Positions 3 through 14,533 of a stretch of 39,092 nucleotides of DNA are shown here, in pieces (positions within the stretch are counted from its first letter, which is position 1; every line of letters starts with the position of its first letter). The DNA is taken from assembly GCA_947652735.1 (NCBI GenBank), contig CANTEG010000021.1:1-39092 (forward strand), written 5' to 3'. The DNA comes from an uncultured Lachnospiraceae bacterium. Its GTDB lineage: Bacteria > Bacillota > Clostridia > Lachnospirales > Lachnospiraceae. The translations under genes were made by a program, and so were the position numbers. Below the pieces are notes generated by a model. It was not told the origin of the DNA. It saw only the letters and a list, made by a program, of their open reading frames with translations, and made no database searches.

Positions 3-479
3 CCATCAGCACCGACACCAAACATGCCAAAGCCACAGGGAATGCAGCCAGCGCAACCAATGCAGGGACAGCAGCCAGTGCAGCCAATGGTAAAACCACA
101 GGGGATGGGCACACCTGCTCAGCCAATGTCTGCTATGCCGAATGGAAGCTTTGTGGGACAGATGGGAAGCAAGCCGATACCTCATATGGTGAGAAAAAAG
201 ACAGGCGAGACAATAAATATAACAAAAGCCGAATTTTCTATAGGAAAATCCAAGACAAAGGCGGATTATTCTATTGAGGATAACCCTGCAATAAGCAGAG
301 TACACTGTATTATTGTACAAAAGGAAGGGGTTAATTACATAAAGGATAATAACTCCACAAATCACACATATTTAAATGGTGTGGAGCTTGCTCCGGGTAA
401 AGAGCATTTGCTTAAAAACAAGACATTGATTCAAATGGGTGATGAGGAATTTGTTTTCCTGCTGAGAAAGGGAGAGTAA
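3..479 (+). CDS. FHA domain protein, 5'-partial
   Basis: The reading frame is open to the window edge, so the true start lies upstream; the first ATG seen is at 24. The visible N-terminal part is a low-complexity linker rich in Pro, Gln and Met (repeats such as PAQPM and QPVQPM), followed by a C-terminal forkhead-associated (FHA) domain of about 95 residues. FHA hallmarks are present: IGKS (usually GR, here GK), SRVH, and an N-x-S-T-N-x-T-x-L-N-G run. FHA domains bind phosphothreonine peptides, so this is probably a cytoplasmic reader of phosphorylation. It is 61 nt upstream of a PP2C phosphatase and a Ser/Thr kinase in the same direction. The Arg-to-Lys change in the first motif may affect phosphate binding. 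Its N-terminal domain cannot be identified from this window. Confidence 0.85.
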   Translation, partial: PSAPTPNMPKPQGMQPAQPMQGQQPVQPMVKPQGMGTPAQPMSAMPNGSFVGQMGSKPIPHMVRKKTGETINITKAEFSIGKSKTKADYSIEDNPAISRVHCIIVQKEGVNYIKDNNSTNHTYLNGVELAPGKEHLLKNKTLIQMGDEEFVFLLRKGE

Positions 480-540: not shown

Positions 541-1311
541 ATGAATTATATTGCAACGTTCCATACGGATGTTGGGATAACAAAAAAAACAAATCAGGAT
601 TCTCTCGCAATAAAAATTGTGGAGACAAATAAAGGCCCTGTTGCATTTGCTGTCGTTTGTGATGGTATGGGAGGTCTTGAAAAAGGAGAGCTTGCCAGCA
701 AGGAGGTAACGCTTGCGTTTTGTGAGTGGTTTGAGAATACACTCGTTGATGATATACAGGATGGAAGCTTTACGGAAGAAAGACTGATTTATCAATGGAA
801 TGAGCTTGTGAAAGCCCAAAATAAAAAGCTTGGGGATTACGGTGAAGAAAACCACTTACAGATTGGAACGACTGTATCAGCCATTTTGATGTTTGGAAAT
901 GAATACTATATTGTACATGTGGGAGACAGCCGGGTATATCAGCTTACAAAAAGTGTGAACCAGCTCACACATGACCAGACATTTGTGGCAAGGGAAATCG
1001 CTGCAGGAAGAATGACACCGAGACAGGCGAAAATTGACCCGAGGAGAAGTGTGCTTCTTCAGTGTATTGGAGCATCTTCCGTTGTTGAACCTGAATTTGC
1101 GAAGGGAAATATAGAAAGAAATGCTGTTTATATGATATGCTCGGACGGGTTCAGACATCAGATTTCGGAGGAAGAAATGCTGGAAAAAATAGGACCGGCT
1201 GGCAGTACGGATGGAGAAAAAATGAAGTTTGGCTGTATGTATCTTACAGAGCTTGTAAAGAGCAGAAACGAGTCAGATAACATAACAGTGGTTTTAATCA
1301 GGACAATATAA
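541..1311 (+). CDS. PP2C-family Ser/Thr protein phosphatase (first copy)
   Basis: A 256-residue single-domain PPM/PP2C phosphatase, the usual size for bacterial PrpC/Stp enzymes; it would remove phosphate from Ser/Thr residues in the cytoplasm. Visible motifs are NQDS near residue 18, VVCDGMGG with metal-binding Asp41, GTT, VGDSRVY, LTHDQTF, CSDGF and ESDNITVV near the C-terminus. The phosphate-contacting Arg of the first motif (R in the R-x-x-N-E-D of PrpC) is replaced by Lys15, which may alter activity. The start is supported by AAAGGGAG at 527-534. It lies between an FHA protein and a receptor-like kinase, so the kinase and its scaffold are the likely substrates. No signal peptide or membrane segment is present. 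Confidence 0.93.
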   Translation: MNYIATFHTDVGITKKTNQDSLAIKIVETNKGPVAFAVVCDGMGGLEKGELASKEVTLAFCEWFENTLVDDIQDGSFTEERLIYQWNELVKAQNKKLGDYGEENHLQIGTTVSAILMFGNEYYIVHVGDSRVYQLTKSVNQLTHDQTFVAREIAAGRMTPRQAKIDPRRSVLLQCIGASSVVEPEFAKGNIERNAVYMICSDGFRHQISEEEMLEKIGPAGSTDGEKMKFGCMYLTELVKSRNESDNITVVLIRTI

Positions 1312-1398: not shown

Positions 1399-3561
1399 AT
1401 GACGAAGGAAGGTACTGTATTAGACGGAAAATATGAGATATGGAAAGAAGTAGGACGTGGGGGAATGTCCATCGTTTATCTCGCCAGAGATAACCGTCTG
1501 AACAAGCAGTGGGCGGTTAAGGAGATAAAAAATGACGGCTCTAAGTCTACGCAGACGTTATTAAAGGGATTGGAACGGGAAGCAAATATCCTTAAAAATG
1601 TTGACCACGCTGTACTTCCGAGAATCGTAGACATTATAAATCAGGACGGCACAATTTATGTCGTGATGGATTTTATAGAGGGAACAACAATCAGTGACAG
1701 ATTAAAAAAAGAGGGAGCCCAGCCACAGGAAACCGTTATTGAGTGGGGACTTCAACTTGCCAGTGCACTTGATTATCTTCACAACATGAATCCGCCTGTT
1801 ATTTACAGGGACATGAAGCCTTCTAACGTTATGATTAAGCCGGAGGGCGGTGTAAAGCTGATAGACTTTGGAACTGCAAAGGAATATATTGTCGAAAACA
1901 ACGCTGACACCACGGCTCTCGGAACACGTGGATATGCAGCACCTGAACAGTTTGGAGATAAGCAGGGACGTGGTATATATAACACGGATGCAAGAACGGA
2001 TATATATAATCTGGGAGCAACCCTTTACCATATTGTGACGGGTATGAATCCTTGTGAGCCTCCATATGAGATAAGACCGATAAGAGAGTGGAATCCTGCA
2101 TTGTCATCGGGATTAGAAAAAATAATATTAAAATGTACACAGGCAGATCCAAATGACAGATATCAGAACTGCAAGGAGCTTATGTATGCACTGGAGCATT
2201 ATAATGAGCTTGATGATGAGTACAGAAAAAAGAATAAAAAGAAGCTTGGACTGTTTATCACCACATCGGTGCTTACAGTTGCTGCTGCAATCACATCCAT
2301 AGTAGGTTATAGCGGCCTTCAAAGAATTAAAATGGATAATTACAATAGTTATATCGAAACAGGAAACGATTACAGGATTGAAGAAAAATATTCTGAAGCG
2401 GCGGAACAGTACAAGAAAGCCTTTGAACTGGACGGAAAGGATTCGGAAGCGTACAACAAATATATTCAGACCTATATTGATGCGTCCAATGTTGTAAATG
2501 AAGACAATGTACCAGTACTTGATTTGGAGAATGGTCTTAACGTTGTCTCAAACAGAGTGAAGTCAGGGTATGATGGGGTAGATAAAAATTCTGCGGTTTT
2601 ATATAAGCTTGCAATTACATATTTTGATGAGCTTGGTGATTACAAGACTGCAACAAAATATTTTGACATGATAGACTCAAATGATGATGAGTATGGTGAG
2701 CTGGCAGGATATTACGGCTCCGTGTCTTTGATACTTTCAAGTACAGACCCTGATAAGCAGGAGCTTATTGAGCAGGTTAACAACTTTGCGTTGTATAATC
2801 AGAGTGAATATACAAACCAGAATGTAGATAAATTTATTAACTACAAGACCATAGGTAGAATTTATGCCACATATATTACATATGAGGGTGTAGCCGAACA
2901 GGCGGAACAGATTATGAATCAGGCAGTGGCAGACTTGGAGGAATATACGGGAAGTGACATAGATGTCAATGACTATTTCTACGCATATTACGACAATTTG
3001 ACAGTTATATACGAAAGTCTTGCAAGAACTGCCGAGGATGAAGCTGACGCAACACAATATTATCATGATGTAATTACATATTGTGAAGAATACATCAACG
3101 TGAACGATATTAAGGTGGAGAATTCAGGTCAGGTTGGAATCGGCGGCACAAACGACAATGTATATAACACAGCCTACTATAACAAGATTTCTAAGATTGC
3201 GGCTTGCTATAACATTTTGGGGAAATATGAAGAGGCTGTTGGTACATACAAAAAGGCTGAGGAGAGACTTGGCACTAATAATGTGATGAGCAATAAAATA
3301 TATGCAGAGCACCTTGATTACATATATTCCTATTGTGAGTCAAAACAGCAAAATCCGACAATGTGGGCACGTGAACTTCCAAATGAACTGTCAGAGCTTT
3401 TAAGCGTTTACGAGAGTGGAAAAGGTGTGTCGGATATAGAGTCAAATAAGACGTGGAAAAAGAGAAAAGAGAATATGGAAATGCTGTTAAATGGCAGATA
3501 CGACACTGACGTTGAAGATGGAGACACAGAGAACGACGCAGAAAGTAATACTGCGGAGTAG
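1399..3561 (+). CDS. Membrane Ser/Thr protein kinase with extracellular TPR-like domain
   Basis: A 720-residue Hanks-type kinase. Residues 10-270 form the catalytic domain: glycine loop GRGGMS near 19-24, VKEI with Lys41, YRDMKPSN with catalytic Asp138 (Tyr in place of the usual His of HRD), DFG at 156-158 and APE at 181-183. A juxtamembrane basic stretch leads into one transmembrane helix at about 283-305. The remaining ~410 residues would be outside the cell and show helical, Tyr-rich TPR-like repeats, for example one around 318-350 (YSEAAEQYKKAFELD) and another near 600 (YEEAVGTYKKAEERL). PASTA repeats, the usual sensor of PknB/PrkC kinases, are absent. The start is backed by GGGAAGG at 1384-1390. 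An Asp/Glu-rich tail ends the protein. It probably phosphorylates the product of the next gene. Confidence 0.92.
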   Translation: MTKEGTVLDGKYEIWKEVGRGGMSIVYLARDNRLNKQWAVKEIKNDGSKSTQTLLKGLEREANILKNVDHAVLPRIVDIINQDGTIYVVMDFIEGTTISDRLKKEGAQPQETVIEWGLQLASALDYLHNMNPPVIYRDMKPSNVMIKPEGGVKLIDFGTAKEYIVENNADTTALGTRGYAAPEQFGDKQGRGIYNTDARTDIYNLGATLYHIVTGMNPCEPPYEIRPIREWNPALSSGLEKIILKCTQADPNDRYQNCKELMYALEHYNELDDEYRKKNKKKLGLFITTSVLTVAAAITSIVGYSGLQRIKMDNYNSYIETGNDYRIEEKYSEAAEQYKKAFELDGKDSEAYNKYIQTYIDASNVVNEDNVPVLDLENGLNVVSNRVKSGYDGVDKNSAVLYKLAITYFDELGDYKTATKYFDMIDSNDDEYGELAGYYGSVSLILSSTDPDKQELIEQVNNFALYNQSEYTNQNVDKFINYKTIGRIYATYITYEGVAEQAEQIMNQAVADLEEYTGSDIDVNDYFYAYYDNLTVIYESLARTAEDEADATQYYHDVITYCEEYINVNDIKVENSGQVGIGGTNDNVYNTAYYNKISKIAACYNILGKYEEAVGTYKKAEERLGTNNVMSNKIYAEHLDYIYSYCESKQQNPTMWARELPNELSELLSVYESGKGVSDIESNKTWKKRKENMEMLLNGRYDTDVEDGDTENDAESNTAE

Positions 3562-3572
3562 ATGGGAGAGTG

Positions 3573-4316
3573 ATGAAAATGGCAGACATTTATAGTATAT
3601 GTTTTTATGGCGGACTTGTTTTAGCTTCACTACTCCTGATAACCTCTATCGTCCTGTTTATTGTTTTGAAAATACCGAGTGTAATTGGTGAACTTACAGG
3701 AAGAACAGCCAAAAAGAGCATGGAGGAAATGAAAACAAGCAATAAGGGGTCAAGTGCAGTATCCAAGAAGGAGCAGGGTAAATATTATAATCAGGCAACT
3801 GGAAAAATTAAAGTAAGACAGGCAAAGTCGGCTGAAGAAATTAAGAAAAATAATGACAATACCACAACGATACTTGGCGATGGTGTTGCACCTAATGTTA
3901 AGGCACCAGCTTCCAAGCCTAAGGCAGCAGTCAAAAAGACGGAAACTGTGCCTGACAGGGCAGTGGATAGTGACGAAAAAGAAACAGTTGTTTTGCGGGA
4001 TGATGAGGAAGTAACAGATGTTCTTCGGGACGATGAGGAAGTAACGGATGTTCTTCGGGACGACGAGGAAGCAACGGACGTTTTGCGGGACGATGAGGAA
4101 GCCACAGATGTTTTGAGAGACGACGAAGACGAGACAAGCGTGTTAAGTGCAGAGGCGGAAACAAGTGTTTTAGGCACGGATGATGAGGCGGAGACGAGTG
4201 TGTTGAGCAGAGAGGAGTCAACCACGGTGCTTACGGGTATGGTGAGCAGTGGATTGTCATCGAAGGTTAAGGTTACATATAATGTAGTAGTAATTCATAC
4301 AGATGAGCAATTATAA
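3573..4316 (+). CDS. Membrane-anchored acidic protein with ten T-x-(V/I)-L motifs
   Basis: A 247-residue protein that I do not recognise as a named family. An N-terminal hydrophobic helix (about 11-33) is followed by a basic, Lys-rich segment and then a strongly acidic region. That region holds ten copies of Thr-x-(Val/Ile)-Leu, with the Thr at residues 98, 138, 148, 158, 168, 178, 188, 197, 208 and 217. Five copies form a strict ten-residue tandem ending in LRDDEE. Thr with a hydrophobic residue at +3 is a known FHA ligand pattern, so the protein may be a multi-site phospho-scaffold for the neighbouring kinase and FHA protein. GGGAG at 3564-3568 lies 4 nt from this ATG and 10 nt from an in-frame ATG at 3579, so either may be used. 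The GTG at 3570 is too close to that site. Confidence 0.85.
   Translation: MKMADIYSICFYGGLVLASLLLITSIVLFIVLKIPSVIGELTGRTAKKSMEEMKTSNKGSSAVSKKEQGKYYNQATGKIKVRQAKSAEEIKKNNDNTTTILGDGVAPNVKAPASKPKAAVKKTETVPDRAVDSDEKETVVLRDDEEVTDVLRDDEEVTDVLRDDEEATDVLRDDEEATDVLRDDEDETSVLSAEAETSVLGTDDEAETSVLSREESTTVLTGMVSSGLSSKVKVTYNVVVIHTDEQL
3984..4133 (+). repeat. Five tandem 30-bp coding repeats
   Basis: Five in-frame 30-bp units begin at 3984, 4014, 4044, 4074 and 4104, each encoding a ten-residue T-x-V-L-R-D-D-E-(E/D)-x unit. Units 2 and 3 are nearly identical at the DNA level, so copy number could change by slippage or recombination without breaking the frame. Confidence 0.9.
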
Positions 4317-4329
4317 AGGAGGCAAATTT

Positions 4330-7300
4330 TTGAAAAGATTATTCTTTTATAAAAACAAAAAGATAAGAATACTTGCATTTGCACTGGCAGTTATTATGAT
4401 GCTGACGCCTTTTTTTGCCCATGCAGGTTTGAAAAAGGACAGTAGGGCTGCATCGGATGATATCGTTTTAGATATTGAAAGTAAGAATCTGAAACCAAAA
4501 TGGTGTGTTTATGACAACAGCGGTAATTCGGTGGATGCTGATGCTAACATATTTTACAAAACAGCGTATGTTGACTACACGGCTGATGACACGATTAATG
4601 TCAATGACGGAGAATTGGTATATGGCTATGATGACAGCGGAACATTTGTGTCTTTGAAAGAACAAGGTAATACCATTAGCGTTACGGGTGTGTACATGCC
4701 TGCAATTGCATATTACGAAAATGATGCTGAGGGGAATCCAACTGTTTATGTAAAACACTGGAAGGGTGACGCAACAGTAAAAATAGATGGGGATGCACCG
4801 ACTGCTACATACGTATTAAAGGAAATTGGCAAGAAGGATACAGCAGTTTATCCTGACGAAACAGGTAATATAGGTGAAATTTATATAAGCCCAACGGGTG
4901 AAAACTGTGCGTTTAAGTTGCATATTCTTGCAAGTGACGGAACAGGAAGTGGACTATCTAAAATATTGTTTGACGGAAGCGAGCTTACGGTAGAAAATGG
5001 AAATAATGCTTTGACGCCTGAACTGACCTCGGACGCAAGCACCCAGCATACAATTACCCTTGAAGATAATGCGGGTAATCAGCGGGTGGTTACCTTTACA
5101 TTTGTTGTTGACGGCACGAAGCCTGTAATATCTTCCTTAGACGCCACAAAACTTGAAAATGGAAGCCAGGTAAGCATAATGAACGGTGTGGCGAAAGCTG
5201 ACAGCGTAACCATCAGTGCAGCAGTTGTGGAAGACAATATTAAGAATGTTATTTTGCATCTTACTACAGGAGGCAGTACAACAGATTACAGCCTTTTGGA
5301 TGGCACATTAACTATAGATGGAAGCGGTAAATATTCTGCCATAATAAACAATCTTCAGACAGGCGATTATTTGTTCAGCTTTGAGGCTGAGGATAAGGCG
5401 GGAAATCAGACAACGACAGTGCCAAGCGGTAATCCAAGCTTTTCGATAGATAACACTCCTCCTGAGGTTTCAAATTTAAAGCTGCAGTACAAAGAGCAAA
5501 ATGGTGCTTGGACGGATGCAGTTGCGGATACAGACGGCGGTTATGTAATTAATCCTACAAAAAATAGAGAGTATCGGCTGGTTATCACTGCTGAGGATAA
5601 CAATACTGCATCAACAGTGAGTGTTCAACTGCAAGGTGGCAGTTCATTTACAAGGATTGGTAATACAAACAATTTTTCGTATACAGTTGATGTGAATGAT
5701 TTAAACAGTAATCCTATATCAGGAATAGTGATAGTAGCTTCCGATGATTTGGGAAATATAAACGACAATCTTACCGTTCCTGACATCAGCATTGCGGACG
5801 CCGAAATAACTGTTAAAACGAATAAGTTTGGCTGGGATGGAGAAGTACAGACAGATTTGGACGGTATACCTGATTACATTAACAGTAAGCATGAATTTAC
5901 AGTTTATGTTGAATCTCTTTACGATATTGATGGTGATAACACAGTGCTTACGAATGGGACGGATACGATTTCCTGTAAGCCGATTGATGCGGGCAGTGTC
6001 ATATATGAGGAGGCAACAGGAAAATATGTAACCCCGGTAACCTTTGTTATCGGAGACATGCCGGCAAGTACGTTGTTTGAAAATTATAAGCTAAAGGTTT
6101 ATGATACACAGTCAAATGGAAATGAAGACTTTGCTTTAAAGAAAATACTCCTTGACCTTGACAGACCATATCTTAAAAAGGCTGAGGTAAAAGACGGAGA
6201 AGGAAACGTTATCACAGACTTTTCCAAGTGGTATCAGTCTGCGGAGCTTTCATACATTGTAAGCGGTGGCGATAATTTGGATGACACATTAAAGGCACCA
6301 CTTGAAACAGCAAAATACATAATCAGTAATGCAGGTACATTCAATGGTACGAATCAGATAGATGTTACGGGAGATAAAACTGAGGTACAGGGGGAACTGG
6401 AAGTACCTGAGTCAAATAACGCTACAGGAACTGTTATTACATTTGATGCGAAGGATAAGGCAGGAAACACAATCCAGACAACAGATGCATCTAATGTTGT
6501 AACGGTAAAGGTGGATGGAACAAAGCCTGAGATAACAGGTGTTAAAGTAAATGAAACTGTTATATCTAAGGGCGATGGAACGCCTGATGCATGTATGATT
6601 GTCCCAGTAAAACGGCAGACACCGATAGTAGTTACCGTAAGAGACAATCTTTCCATTGAGAGCATATCAGTAAGTCTCAAGGACCCTGAGGGAAATACTG
6701 TTGCACTTGTAGATGCTTCAAAGCAATTTTCAGCCGGGGAAGCCCTTAAGAAGGGAAATACGGTATTACAGGAGACACTGAATGCACGACTGAATGTTAA
6801 CGGACTGGCTGATGGAAGATACAGCCTTACCGTTAAGGTCGTGGATAAGGCAGGAAATGAAACAGAAATTTCAGGCTATGAGTTTATTATTAATACAGCC
6901 ATACCTGCTATTCTTGACAAAGCAACAGGAAAAACACCTGAAAGTGATAAAAGCTGGCACAATGAGACATCATTTAAAAAGACCTTTGCAGTTCAATTAA
7001 GCTCTGCCGAGGGAAAGTTAAAGAACATAATTTACACGCTTGAAGACAGTCAGGGCAATGTCAGGGAAATGAATGTTGTAAGTAACGGAATGATATGTGA
7101 TGAGCAGGGAAATCCGACACGTGTTCCTGCTGCGGGCAGCATGGAGTTTACCGTTACTATACCTGAAGCGGCAAGGGCATCAGGTACAAAGCTTACGATT
7201 CATGTGGTGGATATGGGAGAAAATGAGGCGGTAAGTACCGTTAACTATTTGTATGACAAAACAAGACCATACACCGATCGTTTGACCATAGACGGAAACG

Positions 7301-9414
7301 ATACATTCAGTGCCCCGATTGCAACAAAAAATCCTGAGATATCAATAAAAGCAGGAGATTTACTTACCCTTGGAACGGTTAATGTAAGTGTAAGGGGACC
7401 GAAAGGAACCACAGCTAAGAGCTTTGATTACAAATACAATGCTGCAGGAACCGCAGGTGTTGAAAGAATCTTTAAGAAAAAGTTAAGTGACATAATAGGA
7501 AACAATATTTCGGATGGAAGATATACGGTTGTTGTAACAGTTAAGGATAAGGCAGGAAACGCATCTGTAAATGACCGAATTTCCTTTGATATAGACAGAA
7601 CGAAACCGGTTGTATCCATAAAGGCAGTGTCGGGAAAGGCAAGTAAAAAGACGAAAACCCCATATTACTACAATACGGATGTGGGAGTTGAACTGACATA
7701 TACGGAAAACAATATTGATAATGTTACGGTAGCGGATAACAACGTGCTTGTCCAAAATATTGACTGGAAGCCTGTCAAGGGTATGGACGGAAAGTACAGG
7801 GCAACACTCACGGTAGGCACAGAGGGAATACACAAAATAACAATAGTTGCGGTTGACAAAACAGGGAATTCATCAGCAACAAAACAAATTTCATTTGTCG
7901 TTGATAAGAGTGTTCCTGACATAACCGCAGTGGTAAATGGAACAACGGTGTACACTGACAACATGGGACAGCTTATGCTTACAGGTGCGGTAAACGTGGC
8001 AATGACCGTCAGTGATGCCAATATTGACACCGCAGATAATTATGTTCAGATTATAAAAAAGGTTCCTGACAGGGACGATATGACAACACAGTATGCAAAA
8101 ACGTCAAATCTCAACATGTCTTTTGATGAAGAAGCTGATTATGTTGTAAACTTCTATGCGGTTGATATGGCAAACAATAAGAGTAACGTTAAGACAGTGA
8201 ATTTTAGGGTGGATAAGGAAGCACCGAATCTTACAATATCAGGAGCAGTTGGAAGCGGTACGTCATCAAGCTCTGCGGTAGTTACATTTACAATGCGGGA
8301 AGCATTCTGGTGGGATGCAGGCGGAACCATAAATATATACAGAAAAGCAGGCGATGCAAACGCTGAGGAGCTTTATAAGACAATTGAAATAACGCCAACG
8401 GCATATGAGACATCCGTGTCTGAGACACTGACGGAAACGGGTGTGTACAGATTTGAGGTTGAGGCGTCTGACAGGGTAGGCCATACGGCAAATGCAAGCC
8501 AGACATTTACCATTGACAGAGATGCACCTGTCATTACGTTGAACGGTGTCAATGATTATGATAAGACAAATACAAATGTAGAGTTTATGGCACAGATAAC
8601 GGATGAATTTTACACTTCAAAGAAGGTTACAATAACCGGTACAAGAACGGATGAGACAGGCAAGGTAAATGATATCAGCTTTTCAAGCTACAGCCAAAGT
8701 GCAAATCCTACCGTAATAAATGAGAACTTTACGGAGGATGGAATTTATGATGTAACAATAGTTTCATCAGATGCGGCAGGGAATGAGCAGACAAGTCAGG
8801 TACATTTTACAATTGACAAGAGTGCTCCCGTAATAGGAGATTTATCTTCGTATGACGGAAAGGTGCTTACGGGATTTGACTGGAACACAAGTCTTGATGA
8901 CATAGTTTCAGACCTTACCGTATGTGATGTTCATATGTACTTAAACGGAAGTGAGTATGATGGTGTATCGGAGATAGAGGATGGCTCATATGTGCTGCTT
9001 ATAGTGGCAACTGACGAGCTGGGACATACGACTGAAAAAGAGGTAAGCTTTGAGCTTGATACAAAAGCACCTGTATTTATAGTGACAGGAGTAGAAAAAG
9101 ACGAGGTTAAAGACGAGCCATATACAATAGAAGTTTCACTCCAGCTTAGCGAGGATATGCTCACTGATGTCATATTAAACGGAAAACAGATGAATATCAG
9201 TGAAAATGTATGTCGGTTTGATGTGACGGAAAAGGGCGATTACACCCTTGAGCTTAAGGCGGTGGACAATGCAGGCAATGAGGCGGCAGATACCATAGAG
9301 TTCAGGTATGGACAGGAAAAAAACCTGTGGTGGTTGTGGATAATTATTTTGTTGGCAATTGTCCTTTTGACAGTTATAATTATTATTGCAAAGAGACGCA
9401 AGGATAAAAGATAG
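4330..9414 (+). CDS. Large Ig-like repeat surface protein, membrane anchored
   Basis: A 1694-residue exported protein. A perfect AAAGGAGG at 4315-4322 lies 7 nt before a TTG at 4330, while the upstream in-frame ATG at 4303 has no ribosome site, so TTG is the likely start. A signal peptide follows (basic start, hydrophobic core, cleavage near AHA-G at about 31-32). The body is a string of bacterial Ig-like domains. Thirteen strand motifs of the D-x-x-G-N type (for example VDKAGN, EDNAGN, SDRVGH) occur, mostly followed by a D-x-T-x-P linker. One C-terminal transmembrane helix (LWWLWIIILL onward) and a KRRKDKR tail anchor it in the membrane; no sortase LPXTG motif is present. It probably projects through the wall as an adhesin, structural stalk or ligand. 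It sits between the kinase genes and a second phosphatase. Confidence 0.9.
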   Translation: MKRLFFYKNKKIRILAFALAVIMMLTPFFAHAGLKKDSRAASDDIVLDIESKNLKPKWCVYDNSGNSVDADANIFYKTAYVDYTADDTINVNDGELVYGYDDSGTFVSLKEQGNTISVTGVYMPAIAYYENDAEGNPTVYVKHWKGDATVKIDGDAPTATYVLKEIGKKDTAVYPDETGNIGEIYISPTGENCAFKLHILASDGTGSGLSKILFDGSELTVENGNNALTPELTSDASTQHTITLEDNAGNQRVVTFTFVVDGTKPVISSLDATKLENGSQVSIMNGVAKADSVTISAAVVEDNIKNVILHLTTGGSTTDYSLLDGTLTIDGSGKYSAIINNLQTGDYLFSFEAEDKAGNQTTTVPSGNPSFSIDNTPPEVSNLKLQYKEQNGAWTDAVADTDGGYVINPTKNREYRLVITAEDNNTASTVSVQLQGGSSFTRIGNTNNFSYTVDVNDLNSNPISGIVIVASDDLGNINDNLTVPDISIADAEITVKTNKFGWDGEVQTDLDGIPDYINSKHEFTVYVESLYDIDGDNTVLTNGTDTISCKPIDAGSVIYEEATGKYVTPVTFVIGDMPASTLFENYKLKVYDTQSNGNEDFALKKILLDLDRPYLKKAEVKDGEGNVITDFSKWYQSAELSYIVSGGDNLDDTLKAPLETAKYIISNAGTFNGTNQIDVTGDKTEVQGELEVPESNNATGTVITFDAKDKAGNTIQTTDASNVVTVKVDGTKPEITGVKVNETVISKGDGTPDACMIVPVKRQTPIVVTVRDNLSIESISVSLKDPEGNTVALVDASKQFSAGEALKKGNTVLQETLNARLNVNGLADGRYSLTVKVVDKAGNETEISGYEFIINTAIPAILDKATGKTPESDKSWHNETSFKKTFAVQLSSAEGKLKNIIYTLEDSQGNVREMNVVSNGMICDEQGNPTRVPAAGSMEFTVTIPEAARASGTKLTIHVVDMGENEAVSTVNYLYDKTRPYTDRLTIDGNDTFSAPIATKNPEISIKAGDLLTLGTVNVSVRGPKGTTAKSFDYKYNAAGTAGVERIFKKKLSDIIGNNISDGRYTVVVTVKDKAGNASVNDRISFDIDRTKPVVSIKAVSGKASKKTKTPYYYNTDVGVELTYTENNIDNVTVADNNVLVQNIDWKPVKGMDGKYRATLTVGTEGIHKITIVAVDKTGNSSATKQISFVVDKSVPDITAVVNGTTVYTDNMGQLMLTGAVNVAMTVSDANIDTADNYVQIIKKVPDRDDMTTQYAKTSNLNMSFDEEADYVVNFYAVDMANNKSNVKTVNFRVDKEAPNLTISGAVGSGTSSSSAVVTFTMREAFWWDAGGTINIYRKAGDANAEELYKTIEITPTAYETSVSETLTETGVYRFEVEASDRVGHTANASQTFTIDRDAPVITLNGVNDYDKTNTNVEFMAQITDEFYTSKKVTITGTRTDETGKVNDISFSSYSQSANPTVINENFTEDGIYDVTIVSSDAAGNEQTSQVHFTIDKSAPVIGDLSSYDGKVLTGFDWNTSLDDIVSDLTVCDVHMYLNGSEYDGVSEIEDGSYVLLIVATDELGHTTEKEVSFELDTKAPVFIVTGVEKDEVKDEPYTIEVSLQLSEDMLTDVILNGKQMNISENVCRFDVTEKGDYTLELKAVDNAGNEAADTIEFRYGQEKNLWWLWIIILLAIVLLTVIIIIAKRRKDKR

Positions 9415-9431: not shown

Positions 9432-10163
9432 ATGATAGAACAGGCACTTCTTACAAATCCCGGCGGACGGGGAAATAATGAAGATTATGTGATAATGGCT
9501 GAATACGGTGAAGAAAAATGCTTTGTGCTCTGCGATGGCCTGGGGGGACATGAGTGCGGAGAAGTGGCATCTTCTTCCGTTGCAGAATTTGTTGCCGGAC
9601 TGTTTCGTAAGTCCGGCGATTACCCTGCGTTTATTGATGATGCATTTTTGTTGTCTCAGGCAATGCTGCTTGATCTTCAAAAGCAAAAGGGTATGGAGAA
9701 TGCCATGAAAACGACAATGGTCGTCCTTGTTGTCACCCCGGAACAGATAAAATGGGGACATATCGGAGACAGCAGACTTTACCACATATATAATAACGGA
9801 ATGAGCTACGAGCGAACGAAGGACCACAGCTTAGTGCAGATTCTTGTAGATATGGGAGAAATATCTGAGGATGAAATGAGAAAGCATGCGGATAGAAACA
9901 AGCTGTTAAGGGTTATGGGAAGCGAGTGGGGCAACAAGTCCTACGACAAAAGCGGAGTGCTGGAGCGGGATGGCTCTAGCCATGCATTTGTACTTATGAC
10001 GGATGGCTTTTGGGAATATGTCCATGAGAATGAAATGATGACACTCCAAAACCAGTCTGTATCCTGTGAGGAATGGCTCCGAAATATGGAAAAGCTTGTT
10101 TTGGAACGTGCAGATATGTCAAGAACAGATAATTATTCCGCCATATGTGTAAGAGTAGGGTGA
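9432..10163 (+). CDS. PP2C-family Ser/Thr protein phosphatase (second copy)
   Basis: A 243-residue PPM/PP2C phosphatase distinct from the one at 541-1311. It keeps the canonical Arg of the first motif (GRGNNED, Arg13), then LCDGLGGHECGE, HIGDSRLYH, TKDHSLVQILV, a RVMG turn, MTDGF and RTDNYS. All metal-binding Asp positions appear intact. The start is supported by AGGAG at 9420-9424. It begins 17 nt after the Ig-repeat gene with no terminator between them, so it probably belongs to the same transcript. Two phosphatases flanking one kinase suggests different targets, for example the kinase and the repeat scaffold. The protein is soluble. Confidence 0.93.
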   Translation: MIEQALLTNPGGRGNNEDYVIMAEYGEEKCFVLCDGLGGHECGEVASSSVAEFVAGLFRKSGDYPAFIDDAFLLSQAMLLDLQKQKGMENAMKTTMVVLVVTPEQIKWGHIGDSRLYHIYNNGMSYERTKDHSLVQILVDMGEISEDEMRKHADRNKLLRVMGSEWGNKSYDKSGVLERDGSSHAFVLMTDGFWEYVHENEMMTLQNQSVSCEEWLRNMEKLVLERADMSRTDNYSAICVRVG

Positions 10164-13124: not shown

Positions 13125-13150
13125 AGTTGCGTTATTGTAAGGAGTGTCGC

Positions 13151-14533
13151 ATGATCCATCAGTATAAGAATAATGGATATAACATCGTCCTTGATATAGC
13201 AAGCGGTTCAGTGCACGTGGTTGATGATTTGGTATATGATATGATAGAGTTATATCAGGATTTACCTGAGGAACAGATTGCAGATGCAATTGTTGCAAAG
13301 TATGATTCTACATATAGCAGCGAAGATATTCACGAGGCATATGAAGATATAACTGCCCTGAAGGAAAGCGGGCAGCTATTTACTGAGGATGTATATAAAG
13401 ATGTTATTATAGATTTTAAAAAGAGAAAAACAGTTGTGAAAGCACTTTGCCTTCATATTGCCCATGATTGTAATATGGCATGCAAATATTGTTTTGCGGA
13501 TGAGGGTTCATATAATGGTAAGCCAAGGGAGCTTATGAGTGCGGAGGTAGGAAAGAAAGCACTTGACTTCTTGGTTGAGAATTCAGGGAACAGGGTAAAT
13601 CTTGAGGTTGATTTCTTTGGCGGTGAACCGCTTATGAACTTTGAGGTTATAAAGGAAATCGTTGCGTATGGCAGAAGCATTGAAAAGACAGCAGGGAAAA
13701 ATTTTCGGTTTACCCTTACGACAAACGGTATTTTACTAAATGATGAAGTGACTGAATTTTGTAATAAAGAAATTTCAAATGTAGTTTTAAGCTTAGACGG
13801 AAGAAAATGTGTCAATGATAATATGAGACCATTTGTAAACGGAAAGGGAAGCTACGATGTGATTGTTCCTAAGTTTCAAAATTTTGTCGCCAAAAGAGGT
13901 GACAAAAGCTATTATGTCAGGGGAACATTTACACGGAATAATCTTGATTTTCTTGAAGATTTTAAGGCTATGGTTGATTTGGGTTTTCAGGAGATTTCAC
14001 TTGAACCTGTTGTTGCTGGCGATGATTGTGATTATTCCATAAGGGAAGAAGATATTGAGGCAATATGTAATCAGTATGATGCACTTGCGGCTTATATGAT
14101 AGAGCTTACAAAAAAAGGAAAGCCTGTAACATTTTTCCATTACATGCTTGACCTAAATGGCGGTCCTTGTGTGTACAAGCGTCTGTCAGGCTGTGGTTCA
14201 GGAACGGAGTATCTTGCGGTTACACCGACAGGGGACTTGTATCCGTGCCACCAGTTTGTCAGCTATGATGAGTACAAGCTGGGCAATGTATTTGACGGTA
14301 TTCAAAAAACGGAAATAATAGATGAATTTAAGCTTTGCAATGTATATGCCAAGGACAAATGCCGTGACTGCTTCGCAAGATTTTATTGCAGCGGGGGCTG
14401 TGCGGCAAATTCATTCCAGTTTCATGGTAATATACTTGATGCATATGATATAGGCTGCAAACTGCAACGCAAACGTGTTGAGTGTGCAATTATGATAAAA
14501 GCGGCACTTGCCGAATTTGAAGAAGGAGAATAA
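13151..14533 (+). CDS. scfB: SCIFF radical SAM maturase
   Basis: A 460-residue radical SAM peptide-modifying enzyme. The N-terminal ~85 residues, starting MIHQYKNNGYNIVLD, match the SCIFF maturase start and probably form the RRE-like leader-binding domain. The CxxxCxxC cluster motif is Cys107, Cys111 and Cys114 (DCNMACKYC), followed by FFGGEPL. The C-terminal SPASM region is Cys-rich (GPC, SGCGSG, YPCHQF, CRDCFARFYCSGGC, GCKL) and would hold two auxiliary [4Fe-4S] clusters. The enzyme installs thioether bonds on the SCIFF peptide encoded 99 nt upstream. AAGGAG at 13139-13144, 6 nt from the ATG, fixes the start; a TTG at 13127 would fall beside the upstream hairpin. The secDF ribosome site lies within its last codons. 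Confidence 0.96.
   Translation: MIHQYKNNGYNIVLDIASGSVHVVDDLVYDMIELYQDLPEEQIADAIVAKYDSTYSSEDIHEAYEDITALKESGQLFTEDVYKDVIIDFKKRKTVVKALCLHIAHDCNMACKYCFADEGSYNGKPRELMSAEVGKKALDFLVENSGNRVNLEVDFFGGEPLMNFEVIKEIVAYGRSIEKTAGKNFRFTLTTNGILLNDEVTEFCNKEISNVVLSLDGRKCVNDNMRPFVNGKGSYDVIVPKFQNFVAKRGDKSYYVRGTFTRNNLDFLEDFKAMVDLGFQEISLEPVVAGDDCDYSIREEDIEAICNQYDALAAYMIELTKKGKPVTFFHYMLDLNGGPCVYKRLSGCGSGTEYLAVTPTGDLYPCHQFVSYDEYKLGNVFDGIQKTEIIDEFKLCNVYAKDKCRDCFARFYCSGGCAANSFQFHGNILDAYDIGCKLQRKRVECAIMIKAALAEFEEGE

Follow-up and report, generated by a model that had tools for sequence, protein, structure and literature searches.

The window, which is the whole stretch of DNA analysed here (39,092 nt from an uncultured Lachnospiraceae bacterium), begins with a gene cassette in the order FHA protein, PP2C-type phosphatase, kinase, repeat protein, Ig-like protein and PP2C-type phosphatase. 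The genes, together with one feature of the kinase that is needed below, are as follows:

3..479, plus strand: C-terminal part of the FHA protein, with the FHA domain at about 237-440; the contig edge cuts the gene
1-479 of the window joined with 19030-19919 of L143: the split FHA gene, joined at a proline-rich repeat
541..1311, plus strand: PP2C-type phosphatase, predicted eraser
1399..3561, plus strand: Ser/Thr kinase, predicted writer, with a kinase domain, a membrane helix (by eye) and a TPR-like C-terminal part
1906..1926, plus strand: activation loop D-T-T-A-L-G-T of the kinase, with the same acid-Thr-x-x-Leu pattern as the tail sites described below
3573..4316, plus strand: repeat protein of 247 aa, with an N-terminal membrane helix, an acidic tail and a conserved C-end
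4303..9414, plus strand: large Ig-like-domain protein (Pfam Big_13 and others), with a C-terminal membrane helix by eye
9432..10163, plus strand: second PP2C-type phosphatase, downstream of the Ig-like protein

Contig C2 ends with the N-terminal half of the FHA protein; a proline-rich repeat there matches, by eye, the first residues of the window. Directly upstream of the split gene, C2 carries a second FHA gene. The Ig-like protein may start at the TTG at 4330, after AAAGGAGG, as judged by eye. The second phosphatase is also present in the close relatives L022-L025. The cassette may sense signals or act at the cell surface, to judge by the TPR-like part of the kinase and by the Ig-like protein. 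Further along the window, 13127-14533 encodes a Cys-rich protein that, by eye, resembles a radical SAM peptide maturase, perhaps a SCIFF maturase.

The repeat protein matched no Pfam family above the cut-off and no NCBIfam family. Its net charge is 0 ahead of the membrane helix and +2 across the 26 residues behind it, and from these flanks we infer that the acidic tail is cytoplasmic. A basic juxtamembrane stretch lies between the helix and the acidic tail. The features of the protein are:

3609..3674, plus strand: hydrophobic membrane helix, about residues 13-34, predicted from sequence
3864..3875, plus strand: site 1 (NTTTIL), 40 residues ahead of the others
3984..3995, plus strand: site 2 (ETVVL)
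4014..4025, plus strand: site 3 (VTDVL)
4044..4055, plus strand: site 4 (VTDVL)
4074..4085, plus strand: site 5 (ATDVL)
4104..4115, plus strand: site 6 (ATDVL)
4134..4145, plus strand: site 7 (ETSVL)
4161..4172, plus strand: site 8 (ETSVL)
4194..4205, plus strand: site 9 (ETSVL)
4221..4232, plus strand: site 10 (STTVL)
4263..4313, plus strand: conserved C-end KVKVTYNVVVIHTDEQL

A sequence-only reading of this DNA had described ten T-x-(V/I)-L motifs in an acidic setting as a multi-site scaffold for an FHA protein. We recovered the ten sites at exactly the Thr codons it gave, and nowhere else in the repeat protein; the threonines are residues 98, 138, 148, 158, 168, 178, 188, 197, 208 and 217, at spacings of 40, 10, 10, 10, 10, 10, 9, 11 and 9 residues. 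The acidic surroundings were likewise as described, with D or E at 37 of the 93 positions from residue 130 to 222 and a net charge of -30. Shuffling of the tail gave a mean of 0.19 motifs, and at least ten motifs in 0 of 2000 shuffles, so the array is not a product of chance. Tandem Repeats Finder reported the core alone (3979-4123, 4.8 units of 30 bp, 85% matches); the outer copies diverge from this core array in both DNA and flanks, and the codons of the sites vary between copies (ACA, ACG or ACC for Thr; CTT, TTG or TTA for Leu). Several relatives of the genus read D-T-T-D-x-L or similar, by eye, at the place of the site at 3864 (NTTTIL), which is therefore a looser member of the array. The protein ends in VVVIHTDEQL; the family pattern there is roughly (V/I)-x-(H/N)-(T/S)-x-E-x-(I/L), with exceptions, and the conserved C-end is perhaps a docking strand. 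A search of the genome with a DNA pattern for a single motif was set aside as uninformative, with 28 matches vs 32 for the reversed control.

We then asked how widely the repeat protein occurs. Counting the window's own genome in every case, relatives were found in 16 of 150 family genomes by single-sequence search and in 59 of 397 by profile search. Within the genus, 35 of 37 genomes contained one, including 18/18 of those with completeness of 90% or more and contamination of 5% or less. The search of the class returned 10 of 391 genomes (three of the ten outside the family), and that of the phylum 5 of 398 (two outside the family); homologues in other families of the phylum keep the motif. 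Common to the relatives are the membrane helix, a segment resembling K(I/V)P-x-V-x-G-(D/E)-L-T-G-x-T-A-R-K and an IHTDExL-like C-end. Between these shared stretches the tail aligns poorly, motifs aside.

In all, 64 homologue sequences were collected: 30 loci from the family profile search, 30 from the genus search, and L022-L025. After removal of L006, which is identical to the window, and of the fragment L025, a cut at 80% identity reduced the remaining 62 to 50 non-redundant sequences, on which conservation was measured. Their tails contain 265 matches to T.[VI]L vs 5.0 expected from shuffling. Thr occupies 265 of the 269 x-x-(V/I)-L sites, and Leu 258 of the 279 T-x-(V/I)-x sites, the latter count being limited to sites with one of DEANGSTQKPV directly ahead of the Thr. 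Ser never takes the place of Thr (0 S.[VI]L vs 3.2 expected). The complete set of 64 has 38 S.[VI]L, none of them in a tail: 35 fall in the first 60 residues, in the region of the membrane helix, and the other three at residue 64, ahead of the acidic tail. As a control, 494 other ORFs of the fetched loci, three of them members of the repeat family (L117, L161 and L120), gave 189 T.[VI]L and 187 S.[VI]L, a ratio of about 1:1, and solely those three members reached at least 3 T.[VI]L within 100 residues.

The expectation of the sequence-only reading that Thr and the +3 Leu would stand out in an alignment of homologues was strongly supported, as they are the best-conserved positions of the tail. 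They are also kept, as it had argued, despite varying flanks and spacing: 218 distinct 10-mer contexts hold the motif, 216 of which have an acidic residue at -4 to -1 or at +1, and the spacing is mostly 8-19 residues. Loss of the Thr from a retained repeat, which the reading had named as evidence against itself, was seen by eye in single copies only (Ala in L087, Asn in L085, Lys in L188), and one copy in L042 is without the Leu. At least one T.[VILAMF][LM] is present in 49 of the 50 proteins; the fiftieth, L063, has only ETVPL. Four of the 50 trimmed tails are without T.[VI]L: L063 itself, L068, which has one past the trim, and L043 and L050, which have T-x-A-L instead. Because the relatives keep Thr and Leu while the rest of the tail changes, the tail of the repeat protein probably serves the FHA protein as a docking strip.

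The number of scaffold sites ranges from 0-1 to 15 across relatives. With a variation of about fifteen-fold, ten sites are evidently not needed for function, and since some homologues have 0-1 canonical sites, multisite avidity is not general. The repeat units themselves differ, for example GSEATDVLEPSMM in L117 and DAGDESDAATDVLKS in L094, so arrays probably have more than one origin. An array of GETTVM-like units in L058 has Met in place of Leu at +3. One genome, G153, carries two copies of the cassette (L161 and L162), with the flavours (E/D)ATMVL and ETELL.

The setting of the gene is conserved as well. We annotated 55 loci, from 15 non-own genomes of the single-sequence search, 20 further genomes of the profile search and 20 genus genomes, and read five loci beyond these. 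A kinase gene lies directly upstream of the scaffold gene in 55 of 55, preceded by PP2C in 54; the fifty-fifth, L119, is cut off by a contig edge and retains kinase and scaffold. An FHA gene was present upstream in 46 of the 55 loci, one of them a 69-aa fragment (L117). No FHA gene was seen upstream within the fetched stretch at the other nine; a search of eight of those nine genomes found FHA genes elsewhere in each.

Secretion and surface genes accompany the cassette in some relatives. In L030 it stands beside two WXG100 proteins, YukD and a partial EssC-like ATPase, the ATPase being called by eye and the second WXG100 match being barely above the cut-off. In L033 and L037 it lies near TadE-like genes, the match in L037 again barely above the cut-off. 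About 4 kb upstream of the cassette in L033, 16231-17670 on the minus strand encodes an N-terminal TadE-like segment with a C-terminal TNT domain, a combination suggestive of a polymorphic toxin with a pilin-type leader. A search of the window's genome for WXG100 (PF06013) at E <= 0.001 gave nothing, and inspection by eye of the 20 kb of C2 upstream revealed no secretion gene. The cassette thus has the look of a module that can accompany various surface machines or do without them.

The acid-Thr-x-x-Leu pattern of the tail recurs in the predicted writer. A [DE]T..LGT activation loop is present in 53 of the 55 cassette kinases (52 by pattern, L032 by eye), and the remaining two, L113 and L121, have Ile for Leu. 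A comparison across 14 genomes, covering 31 of their 62 kinase matches, L102 included, found the loop in 13/13 readable cassette kinases and in 0/15 readable other kinases, 14 of these 15 being PrkC-like; L207, L214 and L217 had no readable loop. The window's kinase gave TPR-like matches only and no PASTA match. L102, the third kinase of the window's genome (G000, contig C3), has the loop KTYTVILKHGYAP, with T-x-I-L and no LGT, and a start that looks by eye like a zinc ribbon.

The predicted reader retains the residues of the FHA binding pocket in nearly all relatives: with L117 left out, [VIL]SR.H is present in 44 of 45 FHA domains, and N.T likewise in 44 of 45. The N-terminal half of the window's FHA protein also scored 24.5 bits against DUF6382, whose cut-off is 26.7, and the relative L022 passed it with 29.9; among solved structures, DUF6382 had no match up to an E of 1. 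The five FHA matches of the window's genome sit in four proteins, none of them EssC-like by eye.

Among the 46 FHA proteins of the relatives, 18 have a T.[VILMAT]L motif just ahead of the FHA domain, 16 of them with two matches. Chance-like T-x-x-L occurrences ahead of the domain in L137 and L121 were excluded from this count, and the second match in L036 (LTSAL) also looks chance-like. In an alignment of 17 rows, without L112, whose kinase and FHA are as in L109, the Thr and Leu of the nearer cis motif are at least 90% conserved, as are the pocket residues. No cis motif precedes the FHA domain in the sequenced parts of the window's FHA protein or in the FHA proteins of its clade, several of which are cut by contig edges. 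Several of the FHA frames without the motif are short (from 161 aa, plus the 69-aa fragment), which makes absence less sure in them. That fragment lies at 5442-5648 of L117, next to an array that expanded independently; no continuation of the gene is present in the upstream sequence.

Cis motifs match the scaffold motifs of their own genome better than those of other genomes (1.54 vs 1.12 matches of 3 over 20 loci). By a permutation statistic that ignores relatedness, this likeness was reached in 0 of 5000 permutations, in 0 of 10000 without L112 and in 8 of 10000 without L159, where QTVIL occurs in both the FHA protein and the scaffold. When the loci with the most distinctive shared motifs (L159, L122 and L118) were left out, the effect was weaker, at 263 of 10000.

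Loci with cis motifs have 0-5 scaffold sites, and those without have 6-15, except L028 (4) and L121 (0), where L137 and L121 are counted as without. We rejected a rank test on this trade-off as independent evidence, because it amounts to about one event on the kinase tree. A single clade of that tree contains 26 of the 28 array-only rows, and the change from cis motif to array is therefore one main transition rather than a repeated correlation. The pattern fits a replacement of FHA self-binding by binding to a membrane array.

The absence of Ser, the gene order, the cis motifs in relatives and the kinase loop all point to a reading by FHA domains. We consider it likely that the repeat protein is a membrane-anchored multisite scaffold, which would be written by the kinase, read by the FHA protein and erased by the phosphatase. 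A signal sensed by the outer part of the kinase would lead to autophosphorylation of the D-T-T-A-L-G-T loop, and the activated kinase would then phosphorylate the similar acid-Thr-x-(V/I)-Leu sites that the scaffold tail presents to the cytoplasm. The resulting pThr-x-x-Leu sites would be bound by the FHA domain of the FHA protein or proteins encoded nearby, which would gather at the membrane beside the kinase and the Ig-like surface protein. PP2C would take the phosphates off again, and copy number may tune the strength of binding. Phosphorylation, binding, recruitment and tuning by copy number are all steps that we infer. A broader proposal, possible though somewhat doubtful, is that one acid-Thr-x-x-Leu code is common to the kinase loop, the FHA cis pair and the scaffold array, and that the FHA domain moves among them. 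Evolution would have shifted the balance from self-binding in cis towards a long membrane array, the length of which would set the response, in a cassette that could work without a secretion system and that also occurs beside type VII secretion and Tad pilus genes.

Several other explanations were weighed. The phosphorylated tail might act as a sponge that titrates the FHA protein and withholds it from its true ligands, which would be the kinase loop or the protein's own cis motif, in which case more copies would mean more titration and not more recruitment. The tail sites resemble both of those ligands, the FHA proteins examined in the long-array clade have no cis motif, and copy number varies about fifteen-fold, all of which would suit titration. 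The sponge makes the same sequence predictions as the scaffold model; however, the scaffold is membrane-bound like the kinase, which suits local recruitment, and we regard titration as unlikely. Less probable still is that the motif serves the kinase and leaves the FHA protein uninvolved, holding its neighbour as a docking site or pseudosubstrate that mimics the activation loop. Acid-T-x-x-L does occur in both loop and tail, and the kinase gene is directly upstream at all 55 loci. Nevertheless, pure docking should tolerate Ser or Val, whereas the tails have 0 S-x-(V/I)-L against 265 T-x-(V/I)-L, and like motifs stand directly ahead of the FHA domain in 18 partners.

A neutral origin of the array, as a side effect of tandem DNA duplication within an acidic linker, seems very improbable to us. 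The central 30-bp array, with its 4.8 copies at 85% matches, and the array units peculiar to several relatives do speak of duplication. Yet Thr and Leu are kept in 218 distinct contexts, their codons differ in 53% and 63%, respectively, of within-protein comparisons (where amino-acid change, unlike codon change, is zero by construction), and distant homologues without arrays keep single motifs. We give equally little credit to a reading of the V-L core and its acidic flanks as a SUMO-interaction-like site, to be bound by the ubiquitin-like YukD of linked secretion systems: L030 does encode a YukD-like protein near the cassette, but WXG100 matches are absent from the window's genome and the strict Thr would be left unexplained.

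To our knowledge, the physiological ligand of many bacterial FHA proteins is unknown, and here one can be proposed from sequence alone. The proposal comes with a natural series of 0-1 to 15 sites, with candidate writer, eraser and reader encoded side by side, and with relatives that have like motifs in cis. Multisite avidity in a bacterial phosphothreonine circuit would thereby become directly testable. The sites would also offer a candidate phosphosite for T7SSe-type systems, for which control by threonine phosphorylation was suggested, as stated in the available part of the source (PMC11217815).

The account of T7SSe in that part of the source includes a kinase (TseD), a phosphatase (TseF), a protein with N-terminal DUF6382 and C-terminal FHA (TseJ) and an Ig-like protein (TseI), along with TseK and TseH, two proteins that each combine a single membrane helix with a short unstructured region in the cytoplasm; it names no phosphosite or motif in TseK or TseH (PMC11217815). 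The related T7SSj has TsjF, TsjJ, TsjK and a kinase, TsjD, with a predicted TPR C-terminal domain, and TseH is absent from it, according to the same portion of the text (PMC11217815). The window resembles these systems in its adjacent membrane Ser/Thr kinase and PPM phosphatase, in the TPR matches of the kinase (as in TsjD) and in the large Ig-like protein with a C-terminal membrane helix (as in TseI). Its likeness to TseJ is clear for FHA, with DUF6382 below the cut-off (24.5 vs 26.7 bits). The scaffold, compared by description only, fits what has been published of TseK and TseH. L030, a relative, carries these genes next to two WXG100 proteins and YukD, whereas the window's genome has no WXG100 match. 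As T7SSj is without TseH and has TsjK, TseK/TsjK would be the likelier counterpart of the single such protein in the window.

Open-access literature on FHA/TTVL, DUF6382, FHA-PP2C clusters, Clostridia T7SS, Hanks-kinase FHA and TseK described no such motif array in the titles and abstract openings among the matches listed. In mycobacteria, the MviN-FhaA and PknB-PstP-FhaA/B systems have a membrane protein that is phosphorylated by a membrane Ser/Thr kinase and bound by FHA. We know of no repeated sites in these systems, and the window's kinase differs from theirs in giving no PASTA domain match. The link between Rv0020c and MviN is mentioned in the accessible portion of one paper (PMC4238996). 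In the actinobacterial FHA switches GarA and OdhI, as excerpted, a Thr N-terminal to the FHA domain is bound by that same domain (PMC2784874), and the tail of Bdellovibrio DgcB offers, in the section available, another such example, with Glu at -2 and hydrophobic residues at +2 and +3 (PMC6733907). The Thr motif before the FHA domain in 18 of the 46 FHA proteins of relatives is similar to these; in contrast, none is seen in the FHA proteins of the window's clade, and the motif is multiplied on a separate membrane protein. Several acidic Thr (SDTD) motifs of MDC1 dock the FHA protein NBS1 when phosphorylated, as the available text describes (PMC3280358). MDC1 differs in being a eukaryotic nuclear protein with CK2 as its writer, so the likeness is one of working and not of homology; in the working proposed here for the scaffold, MDC1-NBS1 is the closest known system.
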